From positions 1,116,001-1,180,000 of the forward strand of contig NZ_CP009291.1 in the NCBI RefSeq assembly GCF_000767465.1: DNA of 64,000 bases, read 5' to 3'. Shown one piece after another: positions 1,019 to 12,865 of this stretch. Positions within the stretch are counted from its first letter, which is position 1. Every line of letters begins with the position of its first letter. A program made the translations under genes and the position numbers. Under the pieces are notes generated by a model. It saw only the letters and a list, made by a program, of their open reading frames with translations, did not search any database and was not told where the DNA came from. Source of the DNA: Novosphingobium pentaromativorans US6-1 (lineage in GTDB: Bacteria; Pseudomonadota; Alphaproteobacteria; Sphingomonadales; Sphingomonadaceae).

Positions 1019-2857
1019 TCATCCGACAAGTCCCGCCAAGACCGCCACCGCGCTCGTCGTCGGAACGAAAAGCCGCGTCTGATAGCGTATGATCTCGGTG
1101 AAGCACCCATGTGCCTTGTACCAGTCGAGGCGCGACGCCGACCAACCAGTCAGTTCGAGCCGCTGCGCGCCATTGACGAGGCTGCGCTTGAGCGTAAGCG
1201 CTTCGCGGCTTTTGATTTGCATCGGTCGCCCTGTTGCTAGCACAGCATCGACGATTTGCTCTGCCGAAAAGTCATGTTCGTCTTCGAGCCCAAGCGCCTG
1301 GCACAGTTCAGGCACGCAATGGAGCGGAACCTCCCGACCTAATAGCGAGCGTCCGTCTCGCGCCGAGATCCGGCTGACCCGAACATAGTCGGAAGGTAGT
1401 TTGTCCCACACCGGAAGCAGTAGGCCGGTTGCAAGATGCAGGCGCTCGCGCTTGTGATTTGATGCGGCGTCATCGACCTCCGCCTGCCACAGGCGCTGAA
1501 ATTCGGTTGGATCCACCGTTTCCCAGTTGCTCTCCGCGAGTTGATCGGCGGTGATGTGCCCATGCTTCAAGGGACGGACAAGCTCGAAGCGGGCCACCCG
1601 CATACCTTCGTCTGTGAGCAGGCTGCGCGCTGGGACAAGCAGCCCGATCCGGCCTGAGCGCGTATTACGCAGAAGCTGCTGACGCGAACCTGAAAAGCCG
1701 TAGAGCTCCTCGAGGCGTTCGAGACGCAAAGGCTTGAGCGCGCGAGCGATCTCAAGTTCCAGGAGATGTGTAGTCGCACCCGACAGCGCATCGGTGCGCA
1801 GTAGCGTGTCGGTCAGCACCTCGTAATGCTCTACCGCAATGGTCTCGACCCCAATGTCGAGCGTGCCGGCCTGGCGTGCTGCATCTATCCGCGCTTCGAC
1901 GAGGCCGAGAAACTCGTCAAATATGCCGTTTTGCAGAGCAATCGGCAACGCGAGGATGCGATTGAGCCAGCGCTGGATTGTTGGCAGATCATCTACCATC
2001 GCGCCGTCGGGCCCTTCGACCCTGAGCCCGCTCAATTCCTCAAACCGAGAAAGCGTAACGGCTTCCAGCTTGCCTTCGAACAACAGGCCGAACCAGCGGT
2101 GAAGCGCCTCCTTGGCGTATGTGCTCTCGAGATTGTCGGCAGGATCGAAGAGGTTCTGCCCACCCGTCTGGCGCTGCCCGCGGGTCAGTGCGCCGAGGCT
2201 GTCGAGCCGACGTGCAATGGTCGATATAAACCGACGTTCGCCACGCACATCGGTGGTCACCGGGCGGAACAGAGGGGCCGATGCCTGATTGGTGCGGTTG
2301 GTGCGACCAAGGCCCTGGATTGCGGCATCGGCCCGCCAGCCCGGCTCAAGCAGGAAGTGGACCCGGCGCATCTGGTTCTTTGCCGCAAGGTCGGCATGAT
2401 AACTGCGGCCGGTGCCACCGGCATCGGAGAAAACCAGAATTCGTTTGGTCCCGTCCATAAAATCTCGCGTCTCGGCGACATTGGCGCGCGGAGAGCGCGA
2501 CTGGAGCACCTGGCGTCCATCGCGTCCGACGATCAGGCGGCGGGTACGACCGGTGACTTCGGCCACCTGATCGACACCGAACCGTTCGATGATCGCATCG
2601 AGCGCCGTCGCGATCGGCGGCAAGGCACAGAGCTGTTCGATCATGCGATCGCGCGCGGCAAGCGCCGAACGGCAGAGAACAGGAGCACCGTTCTCATCAC
2701 TCATCGGTTCGGACCGGGCATTGCCATTCTCGTCCGTGAACACCGCCATCAACCGAACCGGGAAGCTTTTGGTGAGGTAATCGACCACGTATTCTTTGCA
2801 GTCGCAGTTTATGTCGAGCGTCGCAGCCGGAGGCGCGGGATTGCGTCGGTTCGTCAT
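1019..2857 (-). pseudogene. SNO-family helicase, C-terminal fragment fused to RIT1 repeat start
   Basis: Native gene sequence runs 2785-1019 (588 codons plus stop) and begins at VDYLTKSFPVRLMAVF. It holds the C-terminal half of the strawberry-notch helicase, including FSDAGGTGRSYHADL and the motif-VI-like GLGRTNRTNQASAPLF. The upstream part of the gene lies at 6826-6509 and 12805-10658, separated by two RIT elements. Codons 1-24 of the present frame come from the RIT1 inverted repeat: ATG at 2857 preceded by GGAG with a seven-base spacer, in frame with the helicase remainder. The cell may therefore still make a 612-residue C-terminal piece lacking the methyltransferase and Walker motifs. Whether it is transcribed is unknown. 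Confidence 0.85.
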
Positions 2858-2876
2858 GATTTTACTCCAGATAATT
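2786..2876. repeat. RIT1 left terminal inverted repeat (91 bp)
   Basis: The exact reverse complement of 6398-6488 over 91 bases. The outer end is CACGTATTC. It contains, reading outward on the minus strand, GGAG, a seven-base spacer and an ATG (2857) opening a frame that continues into the helicase fragment. Confidence 0.95.
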
Positions 2877-2882
2877 ACCGGT

Positions 2883-2906
2883 CCTTCGACCTCAACATGT
2901 CGAAGG
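2883..2906 (+). promoter_or_regulatory. Hairpin covering the ritA1 Shine-Dalgarno
   Basis: Perfect 8-base arms CCTTCGAC (2883-2890) and GTCGAAGG (2899-2906) with the 8-base loop CTCAACAT. The right arm includes most of the AAGGA that serves ritA1 (ATG at 2914). In RNA it could hide the ribosome site; in DNA it could be a protein operator. The loop sequence recurs inside the RIT1 core palindrome (6499-6506). Confidence 0.5.
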
Positions 2907-2913
2907 AACCACC

Positions 2914-4458
2914 ATGCCAACAAGATCATTTGTGTCGTTTCAGCCTGCACCAAGCAGGGTTGGAGAGCCGCCCAGTACTAACGCCCTATTCAGTGCATTC
3001 CTCTCCTCTCTGTCGGTTGAAGAGGGAACAGCCTGTGCGGTCCTGTACAGCGCAGCGATCCGCCATTTTCTGTGTTGGCTGGGACTACGCGGGATTGCGC
3101 TCGGGACGGTTGATGATCGCATCGTGCGCCGTTTTGAGCAGCATCGATGCCGGTGCCCAAGGTATTCAGCGCAAGCGACAGCCTACAAGGCCGATCTTGC
3201 GGCGCGTGTCAGGCGCTTTGTCCGGTTTCTCGAAGACCAGGGTTACATCGACGTAGCCGATGGGATTTACGATCTCGGGCGTCATCTTGCTGACTATTCG
3301 CATATGATCGATGGCCTCCAACTCGCGAAGGGGGTGGCGCAAGCCTACCGTTCAGAGGCGGAGCACTTCGCGGCCTGGCTGCGGGTATCGCGATGTCCAT
3401 GGACCGATGTCGATGACACGGTCACCAAACAGTATGCCGATCACGATTGTCGGTGCCCGGTTTTCCGCAAGCGCGGCAAGCTGACCACTTCCGGCAGGAA
3501 GCGACGGCGGCGTTGCACACGGCACTTCGTTGAGTTTCTTCGTGATCGGCGCGCCATCGCTCCGGTCGCGGTGAAGGTGGTCGAAGATCCGCAGGTCGCG
3601 GCATATGTCGGTTGGCTCAGGCAGGATCGAGGCGTGACCGACGAGACGATCCGGCGATACCGGGCAGAGATTGAGCGGCTGATGCCCATGCTCGGCGCGC
3701 CGGCACAATGGGATGCTGCCACTCTGCGAGATGCGTTCGAGCGTCGCAGCAAGGAGATCCCGGGATCGGCTTCGCTGCTCGCCACGATCATGAGGAGCTA
3801 TCTTCGGTTTCTTATTGGCCGAGGCCAATGCCGCCCAGCGCTGCTGCACGCAATGCCTTCCGTACGGAGATACCGGCTTTCGGCATTGCCGCGCTACATC
3901 GACCCGGCAACGATCGAGAGGATCATTGCAGCCTGCCCGACAGGTCGGCCGGTGGAAGTTCGGGATAAGGCGATCATTCTCCTGCTTGCCAGACTTGGCC
4001 TGCGAGCAGGAGATATTCGGGATATGCGTCTCGACGATATCGATTGGCGATCCGGCCATCTGAAGGTCAAGGGCAAGACGCGTCGACCGGATCGTTTGCC
4101 ATTGCCACAGGGTGTTGGCGACGCGATCTTGGCATATCTTGCTGCGGCCCGCCCGACGGCCATCGAAGCGCACCTGTTCTTGCGTTCGCAAGCCCCGTTC
4201 CGGCCATTCAGTTCGTCAGCCGAGATCGCCGGCATCGTTGCACGCACACTCGAGCGCGGCGGGATCGAAGGTCTGCCGACCGGATCGCACATATTCCGGC
4301 ATTCGCTTGCAACCAACATGCTGCGCTCTGGTGCAGGCCTGGAGTCCATCGGGACCATCCTGCGCCACAGCTCGCCCGAGACCACCGCCATTTACGCCAA
4401 GACCGATCTGCCGATGCTCTTGAAGATCGCACAACCCTGGCCCGGAGACCTGTCATGA
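2914..4458 (+). CDS. RIT1 tyrosine recombinase A
   Basis: 514 residues; start chosen at the ATG six bases after AAGGA. The C-terminal catalytic domain shows the full tyrosine-recombinase set: R364 (LGLRAGD), K388 (VKGKTR), H459-x-x-R462 (HIFRHS), H485 (LRHSS) and nucleophile Y494 (TAIYAKT). The N-terminal 210 residues contain what looks like a duplicated DNA-binding module: HRCRCP at 77-82 and HDCRCP at 177-182, each followed by an arginine-rich helix (RVRRFVRFLED; RCTRHFVEFLRD). It is longer than its two partners. The stop overlaps the start of the next gene by ATGA, implying coupled translation. It presumably acts with B and C on the element ends; the division of labour is unknown. Confidence 0.92.
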   Translation: MPTRSFVSFQPAPSRVGEPPSTNALFSAFLSSLSVEEGTACAVLYSAAIRHFLCWLGLRGIALGTVDDRIVRRFEQHRCRCPRYSAQATAYKADLAARVRRFVRFLEDQGYIDVADGIYDLGRHLADYSHMIDGLQLAKGVAQAYRSEAEHFAAWLRVSRCPWTDVDDTVTKQYADHDCRCPVFRKRGKLTTSGRKRRRRCTRHFVEFLRDRRAIAPVAVKVVEDPQVAAYVGWLRQDRGVTDETIRRYRAEIERLMPMLGAPAQWDAATLRDAFERRSKEIPGSASLLATIMRSYLRFLIGRGQCRPALLHAMPSVRRYRLSALPRYIDPATIERIIAACPTGRPVEVRDKAIILLLARLGLRAGDIRDMRLDDIDWRSGHLKVKGKTRRPDRLPLPQGVGDAILAYLAAARPTAIEAHLFLRSQAPFRPFSSSAEIAGIVARTLERGGIEGLPTGSHIFRHSLATNMLRSGAGLESIGTILRHSSPETTAIYAKTDLPMLLKIAQPWPGDLS

Positions 4459-5369
4459 TAAACGCACAGATTTCGCGGTACGTCGCTTTGCATCGCAGCC
4501 TCGGTCGCAAATTTTTCGAGCAGGAGCGCCTGCTTCGCAAGTTCGGCACCTACGCGACTGGCTTCGGAGACAGCCACACCCGTATCGACCGCATCTACGA
4601 CTGGTGCCGAGCGACGACTTCGCAGAACACCGCGCGGACCGGCTTCACTTTCGTGCGCAACTTCTGCTTGTTTGCCCATGCCGAGGATCCAGCCAACCAG
4701 GTTCCGCCCGCCGGTGTGTTTGGCCGGGGGAAGCGTCCGCGACCAACGCCGCACATCATCCAACCGGAACAGGTCCGGGCGATCATGAAGGCGGCGCTCG
4801 ATCTTCCGCCCAAGGGCATGATCAGTCCCTTCACCTATCATTACCTGTTCGGTCTGCTGGCGGCGACCGGTCTGAGGATTTCCGAAGCTCTAGCACTACA
4901 GTGCGACGATCTGGTCGAAGACGGTCTGATCGTCCGCGACGGCAAGTTCGGCAAGCAGCGCCTAATCGCCTTGCAGCCATCAATCCGTCAGGCTCTCGAG
5001 GCCTATCTCGCAACCCGGGCAAGGCTCGGTGCCACGGGCAACGATCTGTTCGTGACGATCCGGGGAAGAGCACCCCATAAGGTCCGCGCCCACGTCGTGT
5101 TCGTCAGGCTGGCGCGACAGCTCGGATATCGTGGACCAACCGGGACTGCAGGTATGCGGCTTCACGATTTGCGGCATACCTTCGCCGTACGCTCGCTCGA
5201 GTCCTGCTCGCCGGACCGGGACGCCGTGACGCATCACATGGCCGCGCTCAGTGTCTATCTCGGTCACACCTCGGTCGCCAACACCTACTGGTATCTCGAA
5301 GCCACGCCAGTGCTGCTGCGCGACATCGCTGCCGCGAGCGAGGATCTGTATCTGGGAGAAGCGGCATGA
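4455..5369 (+). CDS. RIT1 tyrosine recombinase B
   Basis: 304 residues from the ATG in the ATGA overlap with recombinase A. The same frame is open upstream of 4455, but the overlap and the recombinase N-terminus (SRYVALHRSLGRKF) support this start. Catalytic residues are R141 (TGLRISEA), K164 or K167 (GKFGKQR), H237-x-x-R240 (HDLRHTF), H271 (YLGHTS) and Y280 (YWYLEA). Second gene of the trio, it overlaps the third gene by ATGA. All active-site residues are intact, so it is probably functional. Confidence 0.92.
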   Translation: MINAQISRYVALHRSLGRKFFEQERLLRKFGTYATGFGDSHTRIDRIYDWCRATTSQNTARTGFTFVRNFCLFAHAEDPANQVPPAGVFGRGKRPRPTPHIIQPEQVRAIMKAALDLPPKGMISPFTYHYLFGLLAATGLRISEALALQCDDLVEDGLIVRDGKFGKQRLIALQPSIRQALEAYLATRARLGATGNDLFVTIRGRAPHKVRAHVVFVRLARQLGYRGPTGTAGMRLHDLRHTFAVRSLESCSPDRDAVTHHMAALSVYLGHTSVANTYWYLEATPVLLRDIAAASEDLYLGEAA

Positions 5370-6370
5370 CGGCGCTTGCTCCCCATCTCACAGCCTTCCT
5401 GCGCGAACATCTGCCGCGGGAACGCGCCGTAAGCCCGCATACGGTGAAGACCTATGCCAACTGCTTCGTCCTGCTGGTCCGGTTCGCATCCGATCGGCTG
5501 AAGCGTCGACCGACCGATCTCGAGATCGAGGATTTCGGCACCGACATGATCATGGCCTTTCTCGGCCATGTCGAGGTCGAGCGCGGCAGCTGTGTGCGGA
5601 CCCGCAATGGCAGGCTCGCTGCGATCAGATCCTTCTTCCGGTACATCGAGTATCGGGTTCCGGCGTGTCTTGACCAGGCGCTTCGGGTTCGATCGATCCC
5701 CAGCAAGAAGGCAGACAAGACGCTGATCGATTATCTCGACCGGGCCGAGATCAAGGCATTACTCGACGCGCCCGATCCTCGGACACGGCTCGGTACGCGC
5801 GATCGCGCTATGCTGCACTTGACCTATGCAGCGGGGCTTCGGGTATCGGAACTCGTGTCGCTGCAACTGCGCGATTTCCCGGATCGATCGCTCTCGACGG
5901 TCCACATCATGGGTAAAGGCCGTCGCGAGCGGGTCTTGCCGCTATGGAAAGAGACCCAGTCCGCACTCCGCGCATGGCTTGTCATCCGTCCTGAGACTGA
6001 GGTCGCCGAGGTATTTCTCAACGCGAACGGGCAGCCCATCACCCGCGATGGCTTCGCATTCCGTCTCGCCAAACATGTCAACGCGGCAGCAAAGAAGCAG
6101 CCGTCGTTGCTGCGCAAACGAGTCACGCCGCATGTATTGCGTCATTCCTGCGCGATGCACACGCTCGCAGCGACAGGCGATATTCGCAAGGTCGCACTAT
6201 GGCTTGGACATGCCAGCATCCAGAGCACCGAAACATATCTGCGCGCCGATTCAGAGGAGAAGCTGCGGATTTTGGCTGCGCATGGCGGGCCGGAAATCAG
6301 CCCTGGACGCTTCAAGCCGCCGTCAGACACTCTGATCGCCATGCTCAACGACGTCCGCAAGCGGGCATAG
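5366..6370 (+). CDS. RIT1 tyrosine recombinase C
   Basis: 334 residues, XerC/XerD-like size, starting in the ATGA overlap with recombinase B. An N-terminal SAM-like core-binding domain (SPHTVKTYANCFVLLVRFA region) precedes the catalytic domain with R159 (AGLRVSEL), K184 (MGKGRRER), H256-x-x-R259 (HVLRHS), H282 (WLGHAS) and Y291 (TETYLRAD). It ends 27 bases before the right inverted repeat. Residues match the family throughout; which strand or step it acts on is not known. Confidence 0.93.
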   Translation: MTALAPHLTAFLREHLPRERAVSPHTVKTYANCFVLLVRFASDRLKRRPTDLEIEDFGTDMIMAFLGHVEVERGSCVRTRNGRLAAIRSFFRYIEYRVPACLDQALRVRSIPSKKADKTLIDYLDRAEIKALLDAPDPRTRLGTRDRAMLHLTYAAGLRVSELVSLQLRDFPDRSLSTVHIMGKGRRERVLPLWKETQSALRAWLVIRPETEVAEVFLNANGQPITRDGFAFRLAKHVNAAAKKQPSLLRKRVTPHVLRHSCAMHTLAATGDIRKVALWLGHASIQSTETYLRADSEEKLRILAAHGGPEISPGRFKPPSDTLIAMLNDVRKRA

Positions 6371-6397
6371 CCTTCGGCCACGCTGCCCCAACCGCAC

Positions 6398-6488
6398 AAT
6401 TATCTGGAGTAAAATCATGACGAACCGACGCAATCCCGCGCCTCCGGCTGCGACGCTCGACATAAACTGCGACTGCAAAGAATACGTG
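6398..6488. repeat. RIT1 right terminal inverted repeat (91 bp)
   Basis: Perfect inverted copy of 2786-2876. On the plus strand it reads outward through GGAG and ATG (6417) to GAATACGTG at its outer end, which abuts the 20-base core palindrome. Confidence 0.95.
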
Positions 6489-6491
6489 TAA
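6417..6491 (+). CDS. 24-codon open frame in the right repeat of RIT1
   Basis: ATG with GGAG seven bases upstream, 24 codons and a TAA formed by the first bases of the core palindrome. The peptide is proline-rich in the middle and ends NCDCKEYV. The same codons in the left repeat are fused to the helicase remainder. It may not be expressed; it is listed because an outward ribosome site is conserved in both repeats. Confidence 0.3.
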   Translation: MTNRRNPAPPAATLDINCDCKEYV

Positions 6492-6508
6492 TGCTGAGCT
6501 CAACATTA
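6489..6508. repeat. RIT1 20-bp terminal palindrome (putative recombination core)
   Basis: TAATGCTGAGCTCAACATTA lies between the right repeat and the resumed helicase gene. It is an imperfect palindrome centred on GAGCTC. The flanks GAATACGTG and GACGTATTC form an outer inverted pair. The left end of RIT1 has no equivalent. A related palindrome sits at the right end of RIT2. Confidence 0.75.
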
Positions 6509-6826
6509 GACGTATTCGCGAGGGGAGAGATCGATTTCGAGTGCTTCGCGTTCCGCATCGGAGAGATCAGCGAGGCGGCGGTTGAGCATGGCTTCGGCGG
6601 TCGAGACGAGTTGCACGACAACCGCGTTGCCGTCCGCAAGTGCCGCGTCGATTGCAGGCAGCAGGCTCGGCAGCTTCATGGATAGAAGGAGCTGCGCGAA
6701 GAAGCGCTGCTTGGTGCCTTCAAATACCGAAAGCGCAGCCGATTTGGCACCTGAATTCAGGGTATCGCCACTGTCAGTGTCGACGATCCGGGTTGCCTCG
6801 AGAGCCTCTCGCAGGTTGGCATGAAT
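6509..6826 (-). pseudogene. SNO-family helicase, middle fragment
   Basis: 106 codons on the minus strand, open from IHANLREALEAT at 6826 to LSPREYV at 6509. The stretch FEGTKQRFFAQLLLSMK is characteristic of the strawberry-notch helicase between its two helicase lobes. No start codon with a ribosome site precedes it, and a TAA lies just upstream in the RIT2 repeat, so it is unlikely to be translated alone. It joins fragment 12805-10658 (…ADAWAV) upstream and 2785-1019 (VDYL…) downstream without a frame change. Confidence 0.88.
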
Positions 6827-6871
6827 GATTGCTTATCGCGAGGAAGCGGTAATGCGGAGGAACGCGGCGTA
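6827..6871. repeat. RIT2 left terminal inverted repeat (45 bp)
   Basis: Begins GATTGCTTATCGCGAGG and matches the reverse complement of 10593-10637 with one mismatch (A versus G before CGCGGCGTA). It directly abuts the helicase fragment at 6826. The next 45 bases up to the stop of recombinase C hold no recognisable signal. Confidence 0.9.
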
Positions 6872-6916
6872 GTCCTGCAAAGCTGCGGAACATTTCGCCA
6901 CGTCCTTCACATTATT

Positions 6917-7921
6917 CTATAGGGTGTCGAGCCATCCCATCAGATTGGCATCTCGCTTCCACGAAGGTGGCACGTTGCTCGCCGCCGGGGCGCCAACCTG
7001 TTCCAGCGCCTTTCGTTTGGTCTCCAGATTGGCCTGAGCATAGTGATTGGTCGTATCGAGACTGACGTGCCCGAGCCAACTGCGGATGACGGTGATATCG
7101 ACCCCGGCGGCAACGAGGTGGACGGCGGTCGCGTGCCGGAAGCTGTGAGGCGTAACGTGTTTTGACTGGAGGGTCAGCGTCGATTTCGCGGCTTGTTCCA
7201 CGTAGGCGTTGAGCTTGAACCGCACCCCTGACGCCCCTAGCGGTTCACCGTATCGATTGACGAAGATCCGCTCATCGGGCGCACGCGGCTGTCGCTCCAG
7301 TAGCTTCCTGAGCAATGCCACGGTTTCTGGCCAGAGCGGGCAGATGCGTTCCTTGCGCCCCTTGCCGTAAAGACGCACGAAGTTCGGTGCATCGAACCGG
7401 ATTGCTTCGGGACAGAGGTCAAGCGCCTCTTGGATTCGCGCGCCACTGTTATAGAGGAACGAGAGCAGTACATGGTCGCGCAGCCCTTCGAGTGTCGATC
7501 GGTTGGGCTGGGCGAGGATGGCCTCGACCTCCTCGGGCTCGAGGTAGCACGGCGCGGAGGTGGGCTCCCGCTTCAACGGAACAGCCAGGACCTCTGAGCA
7601 CTGCGCGATGTATTCCGGATTCTTGTCCGCCACGAAGCTGAAGAAGCTGCGGATGGCGGCCAGTCGGCAGTTCCGCGTGCCGATCGTGGTCTTGCGGCCA
7701 TGCTCGGTATGATGAAGGAACGCGCGCACCTCGCCGGCCGAGACGTCGGTGAGCGTCAGCCGCGCGACCCCGCAGCCTTTTCGCTCCGCGACGAACCGAA
7801 GCAGCAGCCGCCAGGTGTCGCGATAAGAGCGGATCGTGTGGATTGACGCGCTGCGCTGCTCGGCCAGCCACTCCTGGAAGAACGCCCGCAACAACGCGGG
7901 CAATGGATTGCCTTTCCTCAT
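6917..7921 (-). CDS. RIT2 tyrosine recombinase C
   Basis: 334 residues from the ATG at 7921, whose ATGA overlaps the stop of recombinase B; an upstream in-frame ATG at 7945 would overlap more. Active-site residues are R162 (SGARIQEA), K187 (YGKGRKER), H259-x-x-R262 (HSFRHA), H285 (WLGHVS) and Y294 (TNHYAQA). It is equal in length to recombinase C of RIT1 and similar in layout, with an N-terminal SAM-like domain. The catalytic set is complete. Confidence 0.92.
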   Translation of the reverse strand: MRKGNPLPALLRAFFQEWLAEQRSASIHTIRSYRDTWRLLLRFVAERKGCGVARLTLTDVSAGEVRAFLHHTEHGRKTTIGTRNCRLAAIRSFFSFVADKNPEYIAQCSEVLAVPLKREPTSAPCYLEPEEVEAILAQPNRSTLEGLRDHVLLSFLYNSGARIQEALDLCPEAIRFDAPNFVRLYGKGRKERICPLWPETVALLRKLLERQPRAPDERIFVNRYGEPLGASGVRFKLNAYVEQAAKSTLTLQSKHVTPHSFRHATAVHLVAAGVDITVIRSWLGHVSLDTTNHYAQANLETKRKALEQVGAPAASNVPPSWKRDANLMGWLDTL

Positions 7922-9273
7922 GGCCGCGCCTCCGTGACAAGGCACGGGGCGCCGAGCGCGCGGAACCGTTCACTGGCTTCCTGCAACAGATCCTGCGTGA
8001 CGGTGATGTAGACCAGCGTGGAGTGGAGATCCCGGTGCCCCATGTAGGTCGAGAGGAAGTGCAGTTTTTCCTGAGGGTTAATGCCGGACCGGTACCACTG
8101 GAGGATGCGGTTCACCACCATCGAGTGACGAAGGTCATGGACCCGCGGCCCGGTCCGGCCCGAAGCGGGCTTGAGCCCAGCACGGCGCATGACGTTGGTA
8201 ATCATTGTCGTAACCGCCTCGGGCCTGTAGCGGTCATTTAAGTGGGCATGCCAGAACAGCCCTGATTTCGGGTTCTGTGGGCCGCCAGCGCGCCGCCTCG
8301 CATCGATGTACGCGCGCAGTTCGACCGCGACACTGTCGGATAGAGGCAAGATCCTGGTCTTGTAGAACTTCGTTTCCCGGATCGTGATCGTGCTTGATTG
8401 CAGGTCCACGTCACCAAGATCGAGCCATGCCAGCTCGCTTCGCCGTAGCCCGGCACAATAGGCCAGCATGATCATGGTGTAGAGGGTCAACGGCCGCAGC
8501 GGAGCGTCCGGCGACGGATAAGTCCGTGCGGTATCGAGCATACGCCGAACGTCAGCCGGGCTGAAGATATGCGGTTGCCGATGCTCCCGCGCTACTTCCC
8601 GCTCTGGCCGGGGATTGAAGCGCTTTGGCGGGATAGTCGGATCGAGGCGGAACCGCGCCTTGGTCAGGATGCGCGCCAGCTTCTGGCATTCAGCCGCGTG
8701 GTTGCGGGTCGGCTTGGCAGCCGCCCAGCTCGCAATCATTGCCTCAAGTGGTTGCTCCGCGAGGTCGGGACGGGCCTGAAGGAACCGATCGAACCGCAGC
8801 AGCCAGTGAGCCTGCGCTTCATATTGATATCCCCGGCTGCGCATCAGCATGACATGGTCTTGCATGAAGTCACCCAGCACGCTGCCGAAGGGCGCAGGCC
8901 GTCGTAACGCGGCCAAGGATTCGTCGGGATTCGGGGAAGCCAAGGCCCGCCAGATCGGCTTGCTTTGCTTGACGTTGTACCGACGGCGAAGTGCAGCAAC
9001 AGGGTTGTCGGCGATCAGCCCGATTTCGACGAGGTGGTCGAGGAAGCGGTCGACAATGCAGACCTGATTGAGCAGCGTCGACAATCGCCAACGTTTTTGC
9101 ATCTCCTTCAGCCAGGCGTCGAGCATCTGCCGGTCCACCGCCGGATGCCGGCGGGCAACATCTTCGAAGGTGCAAAGGAACCAGCGATATGTCGGTACGC
9201 TTCCCGGCCGGAACTGCGATTTTACCAGGAAGGCGTCGACGACGGTGCGATCGGGATCGTGCCAGGCGCTCAT
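7918..9273 (-). CDS. RIT2 tyrosine recombinase B
   Basis: 451 residues, much longer than recombinase B of RIT1 (304). The first 130 residues form one helical DNA-binding module and residues 130-210 a second. The catalytic domain has R277 (AGLRRSEL), K302 or K305 (ETKFYKTR), H379-x-x-R382 (HDLRHS), H413 (YMGHRD) and Y422 (LVYITV). It overlaps recombinase A upstream and recombinase C downstream by 4 bases each. It is intact and could still act on related ends. Confidence 0.92.
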   Translation of the reverse strand: MSAWHDPDRTVVDAFLVKSQFRPGSVPTYRWFLCTFEDVARRHPAVDRQMLDAWLKEMQKRWRLSTLLNQVCIVDRFLDHLVEIGLIADNPVAALRRRYNVKQSKPIWRALASPNPDESLAALRRPAPFGSVLGDFMQDHVMLMRSRGYQYEAQAHWLLRFDRFLQARPDLAEQPLEAMIASWAAAKPTRNHAAECQKLARILTKARFRLDPTIPPKRFNPRPEREVAREHRQPHIFSPADVRRMLDTARTYPSPDAPLRPLTLYTMIMLAYCAGLRRSELAWLDLGDVDLQSSTITIRETKFYKTRILPLSDSVAVELRAYIDARRRAGGPQNPKSGLFWHAHLNDRYRPEAVTTMITNVMRRAGLKPASGRTGPRVHDLRHSMVVNRILQWYRSGINPQEKLHFLSTYMGHRDLHSTLVYITVTQDLLQEASERFRALGAPCLVTEARP

Positions 9274-10501
9274 GACAGCACCTCCATTCCAGGCACCTCG
9301 AGTGCCACGGCTCGGAGATCATCTGTTGCCAGTTTGAGATAAGTATTGGTGGATTCGGTGGATCGATGCCCGAGCACGTCGCCGATGATCTTTTGCGGGA
9401 CCGATGCCCGCAGCATTTCGACCGCACGTGCGTGGCGAAAGACATGCGGCCCCCGCTTTCCTGCTGGCACTACGCCTGCGGCGGCCAACCGACCGCGGAT
9501 CATGCCGTACAGGTTCGTCATTGCGATATAGGGTGCGCAGGATCGGACGAAGATTTCCCGCACTTCAACCTGGGGCCGCCCAAGGCGCAGATAATCCAGC
9601 AGCGCTTCACCAACAGTCACCATTAGCGGCATGTACGAGTACGCGTTGGTCTTGGTGTGGCAGATCCGGAGGGATTCTGCGCGCCAGTCCACGTCATCGA
9701 GCCGAAGGCGGCATATCTCACCTTCGCGCAGCCCATACGTGGCAAGCAGCTGAAGTATCGCATAATCGCGTAGTCCGCGTGGCGATCTGTCCTCCTGCGT
9801 TGTCGCCAGAACCGCGGCGATTTGGCTCCTTTCCAGCGTCGACGGCACATCTTCGTAGGCATAGAGCATGGGGCCGATGATGTGTGGCGTCAGATCGGTC
9901 GGGATGCGACCCGTCCGATGCAGATGGCGAACCACCGAACGGAGACGCTCAGCGACATCGGCCAATGATTTGCGCCGTAAACCAGGCGCGCGCATGTCCA
10001 TGTAGAGATCGATGTCCACGATGCTCAACGTTTCGAGGCTGGCGGCACCGGCCCGGTCGAACTGCCATCGCAGGAAGTTTCGCGCCTCCCACATCAGCGC
10101 CGCAATGGACGCGCTTGCCAAACCGCGCTCCTCGCGCAGCCATGCCTCGTATTCGCGGCAAATTTCATGTCGATGCTCGTCATCGGGACCGATCATTTCT
10201 GCGTCCGGGGGCCAATTGCCTTGAGCAAGCCGGAGGAGCTTGGCGATCGCGGTGCGGGGCAACATGTGCCAACGCGCACTGGGAGGCCGACCGTACTGGA
10301 TCTCAAAATCCTGAACGCATAGCCAAAATACTGATCGACCTGCTGCGGCGTCACAGTCTCGACCTGTATATCGCACTCGGCCAGATAATCGAGAAACGCG
10401 CGGGCGTAGAGACGGTGGTTCGCCACGACCACGGGATTGTAATTCTGTGTGGTGAGCGAATTCGAGAGTTCGGTGATCAACTCGTCATGCAACTTCAACA
10501 T
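9270..10501 (-). pseudogene. RIT2 tyrosine recombinase A, single frameshift
   Basis: Begins at the ATG at 10501, with GAGGAGG five bases upstream, and reads about 64 codons of recombinase N-terminus up to DQYFGYAFR. The frame then shifts by one base near 10309-10312, and the rest (DFEIQYGRPPSARWH onward, about 346 codons) continues to 9270. The catalytic domain is complete: YGLREGE, HTKTN, HVFRHA, LGHRS, NTYLK. One missing base (probably a G after AGG) explains it. No classical slippery heptamer is seen, so a true mutation is more likely than programmed frameshifting; a sequencing error cannot be excluded. Confidence 0.85.
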
Positions 10502-10552
10502 GATTGCCTCCTCAGCTGGTCCAGGGACCGCCGAGGTTCGCAACCAATATAA

Positions 10553-10569
10553 TGCGCAGCAACTGCGCA
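10553..10569. promoter_or_regulatory. Inverted repeat upstream of RIT2 recombinase A
   Basis: Perfect 7-base arms TGCGCAG and CTGCGCA separated by CAA, 52 bases upstream of the recombinase A start. The left arm with its flank (ATGCGCAGC) also occurs in the RIT2 core palindrome. This suggests a recombinase-binding or autoregulatory site. It is seen as sequence; the role is inferred. Confidence 0.45.
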
Positions 10570-10592
10570 CACTATCATGGGAATTCGCCGGT

Positions 10593-10637
10593 TACGCCGC
10601 GCTCCTCCGCATTACCGCTTCCTCGCGATAAGCAATC
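10593..10637. repeat. RIT2 right terminal inverted repeat (45 bp)
   Basis: Inverted copy of 6827-6871 with one mismatch. The minus-strand helicase frame enters it from 10658, crosses the core palindrome and ends at a TAA at 10592-10594, adding 21 foreign residues to the N-terminal helicase fragment. Confidence 0.9.
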
Positions 10638-10657
10638 TTATGCGCAGCTCGCCATAA
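10638..10657. repeat. RIT2 20-bp terminal palindrome (putative recombination core)
   Basis: TTATGCGCAGCTCGCCATAA lies between the right repeat and the resumed helicase gene. It aligns with the RIT1 palindrome at 14 of 20 positions, sharing T-x-ATGC at the left, AGCTC in the centre and CAT-x-A at the right. The left end of RIT2 has no such sequence. Confidence 0.75.
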
Positions 10658-12865
10658 TACCGCCCAGGCGTCTGCATAGGCGTCATAAACCGCTACCTGG
10701 TCGGAGGTCAGGCAATGCTCGAGAATCTCGTACTCAACTCCGGCGAATGAAAGTGCCCTCGCCGCGTACAGTCCGAGTGCCTTCAGATCACGGGCGACCA
10801 GTTCCATTGCAGCGATACCGCCATCGCGGATATCTGCGACGAAGGCTTCGCGATTGGCAAAAGCCGTCTCGGGACCCCACAGGCCAAGACGGGTGGCATA
10901 GGCGAGATTATTGACGTCGGATGCCCCGGTCGCCGATGCGTAGAGCACGCGGGCGCGCGGCAACAGATTCTGGATGCGAACACCGGCAATGCCCTGTTCC
11001 GACCCTTTGACCTTACCACGTGAGCCTTCCCCGCCAGCGGCGTTGGCCATCGCATGGGCTTCGTCAAAGACGATGAGCCCGTCGAAGTCCTCCCCTGCCC
11101 ATTCGAGAATCTGCTCGAGCCGGGTCGCATCGCTGCGGCCCGAGCGTAGTGTCGGATAAGTCACGAAGAGTATGCCCTCGCGCATCCCGATCGGGACACC
11201 GAGCTTCCATTGACCAAGGGGCTGAACGTCGATGGGAAGGCCGCCGAGGGCGCTCCAATCGCGGCGGGCATCTTCGAGCAAAGCTTCGTTCTTGGAAATC
11301 CAGATGTGGCGCCGTTCACCCCTCACCCACCGGTCGAGGATGACGGAAGCGACTTGCCGGCCTTTGCCTGCACCAGTTCCGTCACCAAGAAAGTAGCCCA
11401 TGCGGTAGGCGTGCCCCTCGGCGCTCGCCTTCAAGGCGCAGCCCTTGTCGTCGGGCTCAAACCGGCCCGGCAGATCGCGGGCATGAGCGCTTGCGGCATA
11501 GATCAGGGTCTCGGCCTGCGCAGCGGATAAGGCGCCTCCAGCAATGATGCTCGAAGGAAGCTGAGGCACCACTTCGGGCACGGGTGCGGTTATCGAACCC
11601 ATCGCGACAGATTCGACCAGCTGCGTCGGATGCGGGACAGCATCTGCAATCGAGATCCGGCTCGGTCGGTAAGGCAAATAATGCCCAACCTGGCTTTCGA
11701 TCGGCGCAGGTGCTTCGAGCGGAGTAAATTCAAGCGGCAGGATCGACGCCGCTGCCGCGGCTGGATGGATCTTAAGTGGAACCGGTTTCGTCCTGTTCGC
11801 CACCAATCGAAGCGGCAAGGCTGGCTTGGTGCCGATGCTGGGTTCGGCGGGCAGGCTTACCCGGTCAGGCAGCATATCGATCAGCAAATGAAGCTCGACA
11901 AAGTTTGCCGGCTGGGCGATGATCGGGCTGTTATCATCCTCAGCCTTGTCGAGAACCACGAGCCGGGTTGAGATAGAGGTGCCCTGCTTGACGAAACCGC
12001 GCTCGATCGTCGCGTTGAGACGCAACGAGACGGGACCGGCGATCCCGACAAGAAACTTCGGAAGCTCGAACCATTCGGGCATCACTGCGACCAGGCGGCC
12101 ACCGGGCAGAAGGCGCTTCCAGGCAGAACGCAAGTGCCGATCGCCAGTGCGACTATCGTGGCCCCTCTCGATACCGTGTGAATAGGGCGGGTTCATCAGC
12201 ACCACGCTCGGACCCACGTCGGGCGTGAGAAGTTCGTCGATCAGTTCCCCGTCAAATCCCGTGACTGTCGCCTCCGGAAACACGGTGCCCAGGCATTCGC
12301 GGCGCAGCGGCGAAATCTCGTTGAGAGCTAGACGCGAAGTTGTCTTTGCTGCCCATACGCCCAGCATCCCGGTCCCGGCCGACGGCTCGAGAACCAGTTC
12401 ATTGGCAGAAATCGCGCATGCCTTTGCAGCCATCCAGGCCAGACGGGGCGGCGTCGCGAATTGTTGCCACTCGATCTGCTCATCGCTCCGGTTGGACTGG
12501 GTCGGGACCAGACCTTCAAGGCGCGTGAAAGCCTCATCGGCAAAGCTGGATGACATTGCAGGTGAGAATTCGGTTGCCTGCGTCAGGAACAGCACCTGCG
12601 CCAATTCAAGTGCGGCATGGGCATCACGTACGGACCAGCGTCCTTCGGCGTCGCTACCGCCGAAGTGATCGGCCATTGTTGCATTCACAGTGAGCCGTGA
12701 AATTGCTTGATCTGCAGCGAGCCGCGCGGCCAGCGCCCTCGCCGCTGCCAACACTTGCGGCTCGGCGGGATCGGAGAATGCGAAAGCGGTATTTGCGTGT
12801 AACATGAGAGACCTCCTGAAGAGGCCCTGGGTTTGTCCGGGTGTCCGTTCGGATGGATCCGCCCG

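Follow-up and report, generated by a model that had tools for sequence, protein, structure and literature searches.

Two RIT elements in a strawberry-notch-type gene

A stretch of 64,000 nucleotides from Novosphingobium pentaromativorans US6-1 (contig NZ_CP009291.1, positions 1,116,001 to 1,180,000; the window) carries two RIT elements, RIT1 (2792-6482) and RIT2 (6833-10631), both within a single strawberry-notch-type gene on the minus strand, which they split in three. Each has the features of a RIT element: an overlapping trio of recombinase genes (ritA, ritB and ritC) on one strand, terminal inverted repeats and a size of about 3.5 kb. The bodies measure 3691 base pairs (bp) in RIT1 and 3799 bp in RIT2, and adjacent RIT1 genes overlap by 4 bp each. 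At one end only, a 6-bp spacer (x6), a nearly palindromic 20-bp core and a further 6-mer (R6) lie between the inverted repeat and the target gene; at the other, plain end there is a single 6-mer (L6). Sequence comparison, which makes up the whole of this analysis, suggests that the core belongs to the element and lies at the centre of a circular intermediate. The features are as follows.

1019..2785, minus strand: 3' part of the target gene, with Helicase_C_4, the strawberry notch C-terminal domain
2786..2791, plus strand: RIT1 plain-side 6-mer (L6) CACGTA, taken as native target sequence by the 6-mer rule given below
2792..2876, plus strand: RIT1 left inverted repeat, 85 bp, matching the right arm at 85/85 positions
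2914..4458, plus strand: RIT1 ritA, tyrosine recombinase of 514 amino acids (aa), Phage_integrase domain
4455..5369, plus strand: RIT1 ritB, tyrosine recombinase of 304 aa, Phage_integrase domain
5366..6370, plus strand: RIT1 ritC, tyrosine recombinase of 334 aa, Phage_integrase domain
6398..6482, plus strand: RIT1 right inverted repeat, 85 bp
6483..6488, plus strand: RIT1 spacer 6-mer (x6) between repeat and core
6489..6508, plus strand: RIT1 20-bp core TAATGCTGAGCTCAACATTA, 9/10 pairs
6509..6514, plus strand: RIT1 6-mer beyond the core (R6) GACGTA, taken as circle-borne
6515..6826, minus strand: middle piece of the target gene between RIT1 and RIT2; the reading frame joins across both sites
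6827..6832, plus strand: RIT2 plain-side 6-mer (L6) GATTGC
6833..6871, plus strand: RIT2 left inverted repeat, 39 bp, 38/39 match
6917..7921, minus strand: RIT2 ritC, Phage_integrase domain
7918..9273, minus strand: RIT2 ritB, Phage_integrase domain
9270..10570, minus strand: RIT2 ritA in two frames (9270-10376 and 10193-10570), a single open frame in the sister copy L020
10593..10631, plus strand: RIT2 right inverted repeat, 39 bp
10632..10637, plus strand: RIT2 spacer 6-mer (x6) between repeat and core
10638..10657, plus strand: RIT2 20-bp core TTATGCGCAGCTCGCCATAA, 7/10 pairs
10658..10663, plus strand: RIT2 6-mer beyond the core (R6) TACCGC
10664..12805, minus strand: 5' part of the target gene, AAA_34, strawberry-notch-like

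The original prediction, made from the window alone, had pointed out the two palindromes, and their positions and their agreement at 14 of 20 bases were confirmed. Self-complementary pairs number 9/10 in the RIT1 core and 7/10 in that of RIT2. As proposed, no core is present at the plain ends, where the best 20-mer within 50 bp outside each forms 5/10 pairs, and in both elements the core lies towards the 5' part of the target gene despite the opposite directions of the trios. The core was also correctly placed outside the inverted repeat, but it does not adjoin it directly: the 6-bp spacer intervenes, and the true repeats are of 85 bp (85/85) and 39 bp (38/39). The spacer looked like part of the repeat because it is complementary to the plain-end 6 bp in both window copies. 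These overlooked spacers are the strongest evidence and the source of the flipping pattern described below. The RIT1 core pattern (with up to 3 mismatches) has three sites in the 5.46-Mb genome, all of them RIT1 ends.

The target gene reads as an open frame when the window flanks are joined over either 6-mer, showing that the insertion comprises body, x6, core and 6 bp. In an empty homologue from Sphingopyxis sp. 113P3 (L139), which is 94.3% identical over the joined flanks, only 6 bp separates the flanks, and among the matches listed they are also 6 bp apart in at least several other genomes. Two recombinase genes adjoin a piece of the strawberry-notch gene in L139, yet its RIT2 site is empty; it may represent an intermediate stage of the double insertion.

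Three RIT1-type and five RIT2-type copies were found in the US6-1 genome. All eight occupy the same two sites in homologous target genes, each with a single core on the 5' side of the target. The 3691-bp bodies of the window RIT1 and the RIT1 at C1:7311-11033 (pair L024/L020) are 100% identical and inverted relative to the target, and one core is the exact reverse complement of the other. Similarly, three RIT2 bodies with no mismatch over 3801 bp occur in both orientations, with core end and strand following the body. Inversion of identical bodies together with their cores indicates that the core belongs to the element, has a fixed polarity and can lie at either end.

It is very probable that the core, as part of RIT, forms the centre of a circle with the order ritA-inverted repeat, 6 bp, core, 6 bp, inverted repeat-ritC. 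Such a circle would have a near-symmetric pair of crossover sites flanking the core, and integration would cut one of them. One repeat would join the target over the target's own 6 bp (L6, the plain side); the core would remain connected to the second repeat through the 6 bp left uncut (x6) and would meet the target via the circle-borne 6 bp (R6). Since the circle could be cut on either side of the core, the core could come to lie at either end of the element with fixed polarity, the asymmetry of the target setting which gene half receives it. When a new circle forms, the donor L6 would become part of the newly made junction between core and repeat, as happens in SE elements (strand-biased circularizing integrative elements) and Tn554. 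For L197, a RIT2-type copy on plasmid pSHV1 of Sphingobium herbicidovorans MH, the predicted junction is CCTCGCGATAA-CAGGTG-TTATGCGCAGCTAAGCATAA-GATCGC-TTATCGCGAGG. The R6 of L197 is GATCGC as well; in Pseudosulfitobacter plasmid g (L152), from a strain with four copies distinguishable by x6 and L6, L6 is GATCTG, R6 CGTCCG and x6 GATGGC. We infer the circle, the order of steps, a donor that is copied rather than cut (the strains examined hold two or more copies, whichever the fate of the donor) and the role of each Rit protein.

The catalytic motif of tyrosine recombinases is R...HxxRH...Y. HxxRH and a downstream Y were found in all six Rit proteins of the window by pattern match only, with no alignment, and each has a Phage_integrase domain; RH-Y in Table 1 of PMC3414803 agrees with the motif. 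NCBIfam matches of the six were XerC/XerD-like, all below the curated cut-off (Tn554-specific models were not searched). The window RIT2 body of 3799 bp compares with 3800 bp in L020, and with ritA frameshifted this copy may perhaps have lost autonomous movement. Two RIT1-type copies, L021 (G000:C4:175582-180717) and L057, are 5110 bp long instead of about 3690 bp, and L021 has an additional reading frame of 517 aa between ritC and its right end, on the opposite strand. RIT elements may carry cargo.

Six-base relations between putative donor and product

According to the model, the circle takes the L6 of the donor. An inverted product would then have the donor's x6 as its R6 and the donor's L6 as its x6, and a same-orientation product would have the donor's L6 as its R6 and an unchanged x6. 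The rule was derived from the US6-1 genome and two Sphingobium strains, was set down alongside retrieval of the first plasmid sets, and was then tested on these and on later ones. Within-strain pairs, drawn from alphaproteobacterial strains and US6-1 and of RIT2 type except for the RIT1 pair of US6-1, fitted it in 18 of 24 cases, compared with 19 of 992 cross-strain pairs (all complete copies). Each of 11 strains had at least one fitting pair, and in 5000 permutations of x6 the number of fits averaged 0.6 and reached at most 5. Alternative rules in which L6 passes to L6 or R6 to R6 were rejected, as they fitted only 5/24 and 7/24 within-strain pairs. The set of 24 leaves out eight US6-1 pairs with different cores; the L6 of L148 was added to the parsed set by hand. 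Two of the 18 fits carry little information, CFD-1 being a duplicated region and Pseudosulfitobacter d/e having identical 6-mers throughout.

Two cases besides these agree with the rule. The xenophagum RIT1 pair L143/L144, which is outside the 24 with one L6 cut off, fits in both 6-mers. In YBL2, L147 and the rule together required the unseen L6 of the second copy to be CAGGCT, and the stretch, when read, had CAGGCT (the prediction was unrecorded beforehand).

Several observations weigh against the rule or its direction. Pairs within a strain have a common history and cannot be treated as independent, and the strains were selected for their multiple copies. Six of the 24 pairs miss: L020/L024 (RIT2), L021/L023, L022/L023, L149/L152, L150/L152 and L155/L157. 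The last three could be indirect, via a third copy that is present, and L021/L023 would need one unseen intermediate, L022/L023 then being indirect via L021; L020/L024, from US6-1 itself, fits neither directly nor by these routes. A later pair from Sphingobium JS3065, L195/L196, also misfits, and including it would give 18/25. Its R6 and x6 are equal and its L6 differs, as expected for two products of one donor; if inverted, the donor predicted by the rule would have x6 GATGCC and L6 AACCGC. The reverse rule, with R6 carried, fits unordered pairs equally well (18/24), so that the direction rests on L6 being native and on the analogy with SE elements. Finally, L148 has an L6 unlike the 6-mer found at empty sites that share its flank.

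The native origin of L6 was examined at empty sites sharing the same 15-bp flank. Among the matches listed, L6 is the empty-site 6-mer in seven of eight copies (L023, L067, L075, L142, L144, L161 and L162) and R6 in one of eight (L075). The native 6-mer is itself variable, as three empty sites at one flank have three different 6-mers among the matches listed (GATGCC, GATGCT and, in L139, GATTCC). Where plain flanks are alike at 32/34 positions or more, L6 is equal in 17 of 19 pairs and R6 in 5 of 19 (the CFD-1 duplicate being counted twice); at 29/34 or more the values are 33/65 and 15/65. Transpositions observed for SE elements went in this direction too (PMC9345347).

Opposite-orientation within-strain pairs fit in 15 of 16 cases and same-orientation pairs in 3 of 8, the latter three being the CFD-1 whole-region duplicate, an uninformative pair and a pair also explained by two flips. 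Most jumps thus appear to invert the element and to involve the second of the two 6-bp sites that flank the core, and the integration site would usually not be the one just closed. RIT probably flips at nearly every jump, a circle closed on one side of the core integrating at the other, older side. A possible cause is that the freshly closed junction is nicked, leaving only the older site intact; a nicked fresh junction is reported for SE circles (PMC10214605). If this is true, orientation alternates, L6 is the present site, and x6 and R6 are tags of the two previous sites, which may allow the order of past jumps to be read from a genome sequence alone. Random use of the two sites, with the excess of flipped pairs due to sampling chance, is unlikely. 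The sites are near-symmetric, nothing known demands alternation and the sample is 11 strains, but besides the difference between 15/16 and 3/8, the former has P = 0.0005 against even odds (pairs are non-independent).

Polarity and distribution of the core

Asymmetric cores in sets with near-identical bodies have one polarity in 20 copies (13 of the 100% RIT2 type, three of the US6-1 type, L091/L092 and the two US6-1 RIT1). Of 14 plasmid records compared with a junction query, 11 contained repeat and core with the expected polarity (seven at the ritC end, four at the ritA end), matching over 116 bases at 94.8% with only the six N of the query unmatched; five of these 11 records are already among the 20 copies. 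The other non-matching records, apart from Sphingobium sp. TKS pTK1 (L164, see below), are MM-1 (L163), which shows the plain end only in the stretch read, and a third from Sphingomonas koreensis.

An alternative is that the core is a fixed third terminal repeat at one end, flipped copies arising by inversion of the body in place. This is very unlikely. The long near-perfect repeats make such inversion possible and the polarity in TKS fits it, but it would leave the core strand unchanged, whereas in both identical-body sets from US6-1 the core is reverse-complemented with the body. It also runs contrary to the one polarity kept by the 20 copies and does not predict the 6-mer matches. As core polarity follows the body, in-place inversion was ruled out as a general cause. 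That the core is target sequence or a target-site duplication, as its place outside the inverted repeat might suggest, is extremely improbable, because the flanks are just 6 bp apart in L139 and at least several more genomes and the window flanks joined over 6 bp give an open frame.

The generality of a single core belonging to the element was assessed in copies parsed from core-pattern relatives, from 80 of 99 genome loci found by RitC and from plasmids, the plasmid stretches being a chosen subset of 565 matching records, mainly from strains with several copies. Exactly one core was found in 57 of 62 RIT1/RIT2-type copies with both ends readable. It is at the ritA end in 32 and at the ritC end in 25, ruling out a core fixed to one gene end. 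Plasmids contributed 26 of the 57, the RitC genome search 17, US6-1 eight and core-pattern genomes six (L053-L058); these six were chosen by core pattern and are no evidence for its presence. L052 was omitted from the parsed set, having the same length and ends as L091. Outside the 57 are L074, with a core on both sides, copies missing an end, and L164, L197 and L198. The later copies L164, L195, L196, L197 and L198 have one core each.

Among more distant RIT elements 44 loci were scanned, of which 20 had no repeat, five ran off the contig and 19 were readable. A one-sided core-like palindrome was found in 16 of the 19 (nine at the ritA end, seven at the ritC end), including elements from Acidobacteria, Schaedlerella and Prevotella; shuffled windows reach 8/10 pairs in 271 of 19,000 cases. 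L122 was counted at 7/10 pairs for its core form, and in L122, as in L131, the opposite side also has a 7-pair stretch. L103 and L099 belong to both the RIT1/RIT2-type and the distant set. Among 32 ritC-like matches listed from 12 genomes searched for distant multi-copy RIT elements, no equal-score set of the kind expected from identical copies was found except a weak pair in G532.

The circle model of the original prediction, with the core at its centre, is supported by these comparisons, in which one-end core, either-end placement and fixed polarity were all tested and exceptions were few. Its expectation of one core per relative was largely borne out, although a few copies have none or two, and these are among the points that tell against the core as a constant part of RIT. 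L063, L083, L099 and L093 have no core and L074 has two (5/62), and L099, L110 and L129 (3/19) have none in the distant set. In addition, L164 is the only copy found in which the core has the opposite polarity to the trio; an in-place inversion between its repeats may account for this. The repeat-core-repeat circle junction that had been predicted did not turn up: no circle or tandem junction was found in the 163 sequences examined, in viral contigs (RIT2-type pattern) or in 72,556 plasmids (one RIT2 type). Contigs of about 3.8 kb, which resembled circles, are uninformative, as the ends examined lie within the body, at the repeat or no more than 6 bp from it.

Some of the exceptions may have a common origin. 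The coreless L063 and L083 are each flanked by the 3' halves of two different target genes, and L074, with two cores, by two such 5' halves; L129 has on either side what reads as one and the same half of an IstB-like gene. The same target half on both sides is the expected outcome of a crossover between two oppositely inserted copies, and all four look like chimeras formed by such recombination, which may mark plasmid or chromosome rearrangements. L093, whose two flanks are the same, probably reflects a wrong repeat match. Neither L110, in which only one flank reads as that IstB-like half, nor L099, whose 8-pair stretch is not of core form, is explained in this way.

Most of the RIT1/RIT2-type copies inspected interrupt a strawberry-notch gene and have their core on its 5' side (from flank sequence and plasmid annotation, with no formal count); L090, L091, L092 and L198 sit outside such genes. 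Flank pieces of distant RIT elements had a Pfam match in six of ten scanned, with IstB beside L113 and L131 and on both sides of L122, RadC beside L130 and DUF932 beside L115. Different RIT groups seem to favour conserved spots in particular genes. RadC and IS66 tnpA are previously known RIT targets (PMC2864759).

Relation to known elements

A palindrome at RIT ends is already published. Van Houdt 2012 (PMC3414803) described a '28-9 bp inverted repeat and overlapping palindromic sequence flanking ritA and ritC', and in that account repeat and palindrome fit poorly with the usual core and arm binding sites. Published RIT elements resemble those of the window in their three overlapping tyrosine recombinase genes on one strand, their size of about 3.7 kb, their terminal inverted repeats and their insertion in genes of other mobile DNA. 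A RIT circle, the 6-bp spacers, the 6-bp donor-product rule and flipping are not described in the accounts of RIT consulted (open PubMed Central papers). In Table 1 of PMC10214605 (2023), the target specificity, empty site and movement of RIT are entered as not tested.

SE elements are like RIT in that the circle carries 6 bp of the donor left flank to the new right junction, the new left 6 bp coming from the target (PMC9345347). The equivalent move of a 6-bp footprint from donor left flank to product right flank was found in the 18 fitting within-strain pairs. They are unlike RIT in their genes, IntA, Tfp, IntB and Srap (PMC10214605), as opposed to three recombinases; the set intA, tfp, intB and srap was absent from both window elements, which are filled by three integrase-type genes (tfp and srap were not separately searched). 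RIT would thus work like an SE without being one by gene content. A palindromic core with two usable sites, serving both orientations, also sets RIT apart, no such core being described in these SE accounts.

Tn554-like elements (Tn554, Tn552-II) share with RIT the carriage of a donor 7-bp att to the right end via a circular intermediate (Tn552-II, PMC12486829). They have TnpA/B/C in place of RitA/B/C, and neither a shared palindromic core nor alternation is described for them there. GInts also have a group of tyrosine recombinase genes, a circular form and attachment-site variants after excision (PMC5385486), but four of their genes are essential, and 'palindrom' and 'inverted repeat' are absent from the main text of PMC5385486.

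RIT movement now has a concrete attachment site, a rule of copy parentage and a junction sequence to look for, which could make a widespread orphan family accessible to testing and link it to SE and Tn554 elements. If flipping at nearly every jump is true, RIT represents a two-site, alternating form of the SE/Tn554 mechanism.

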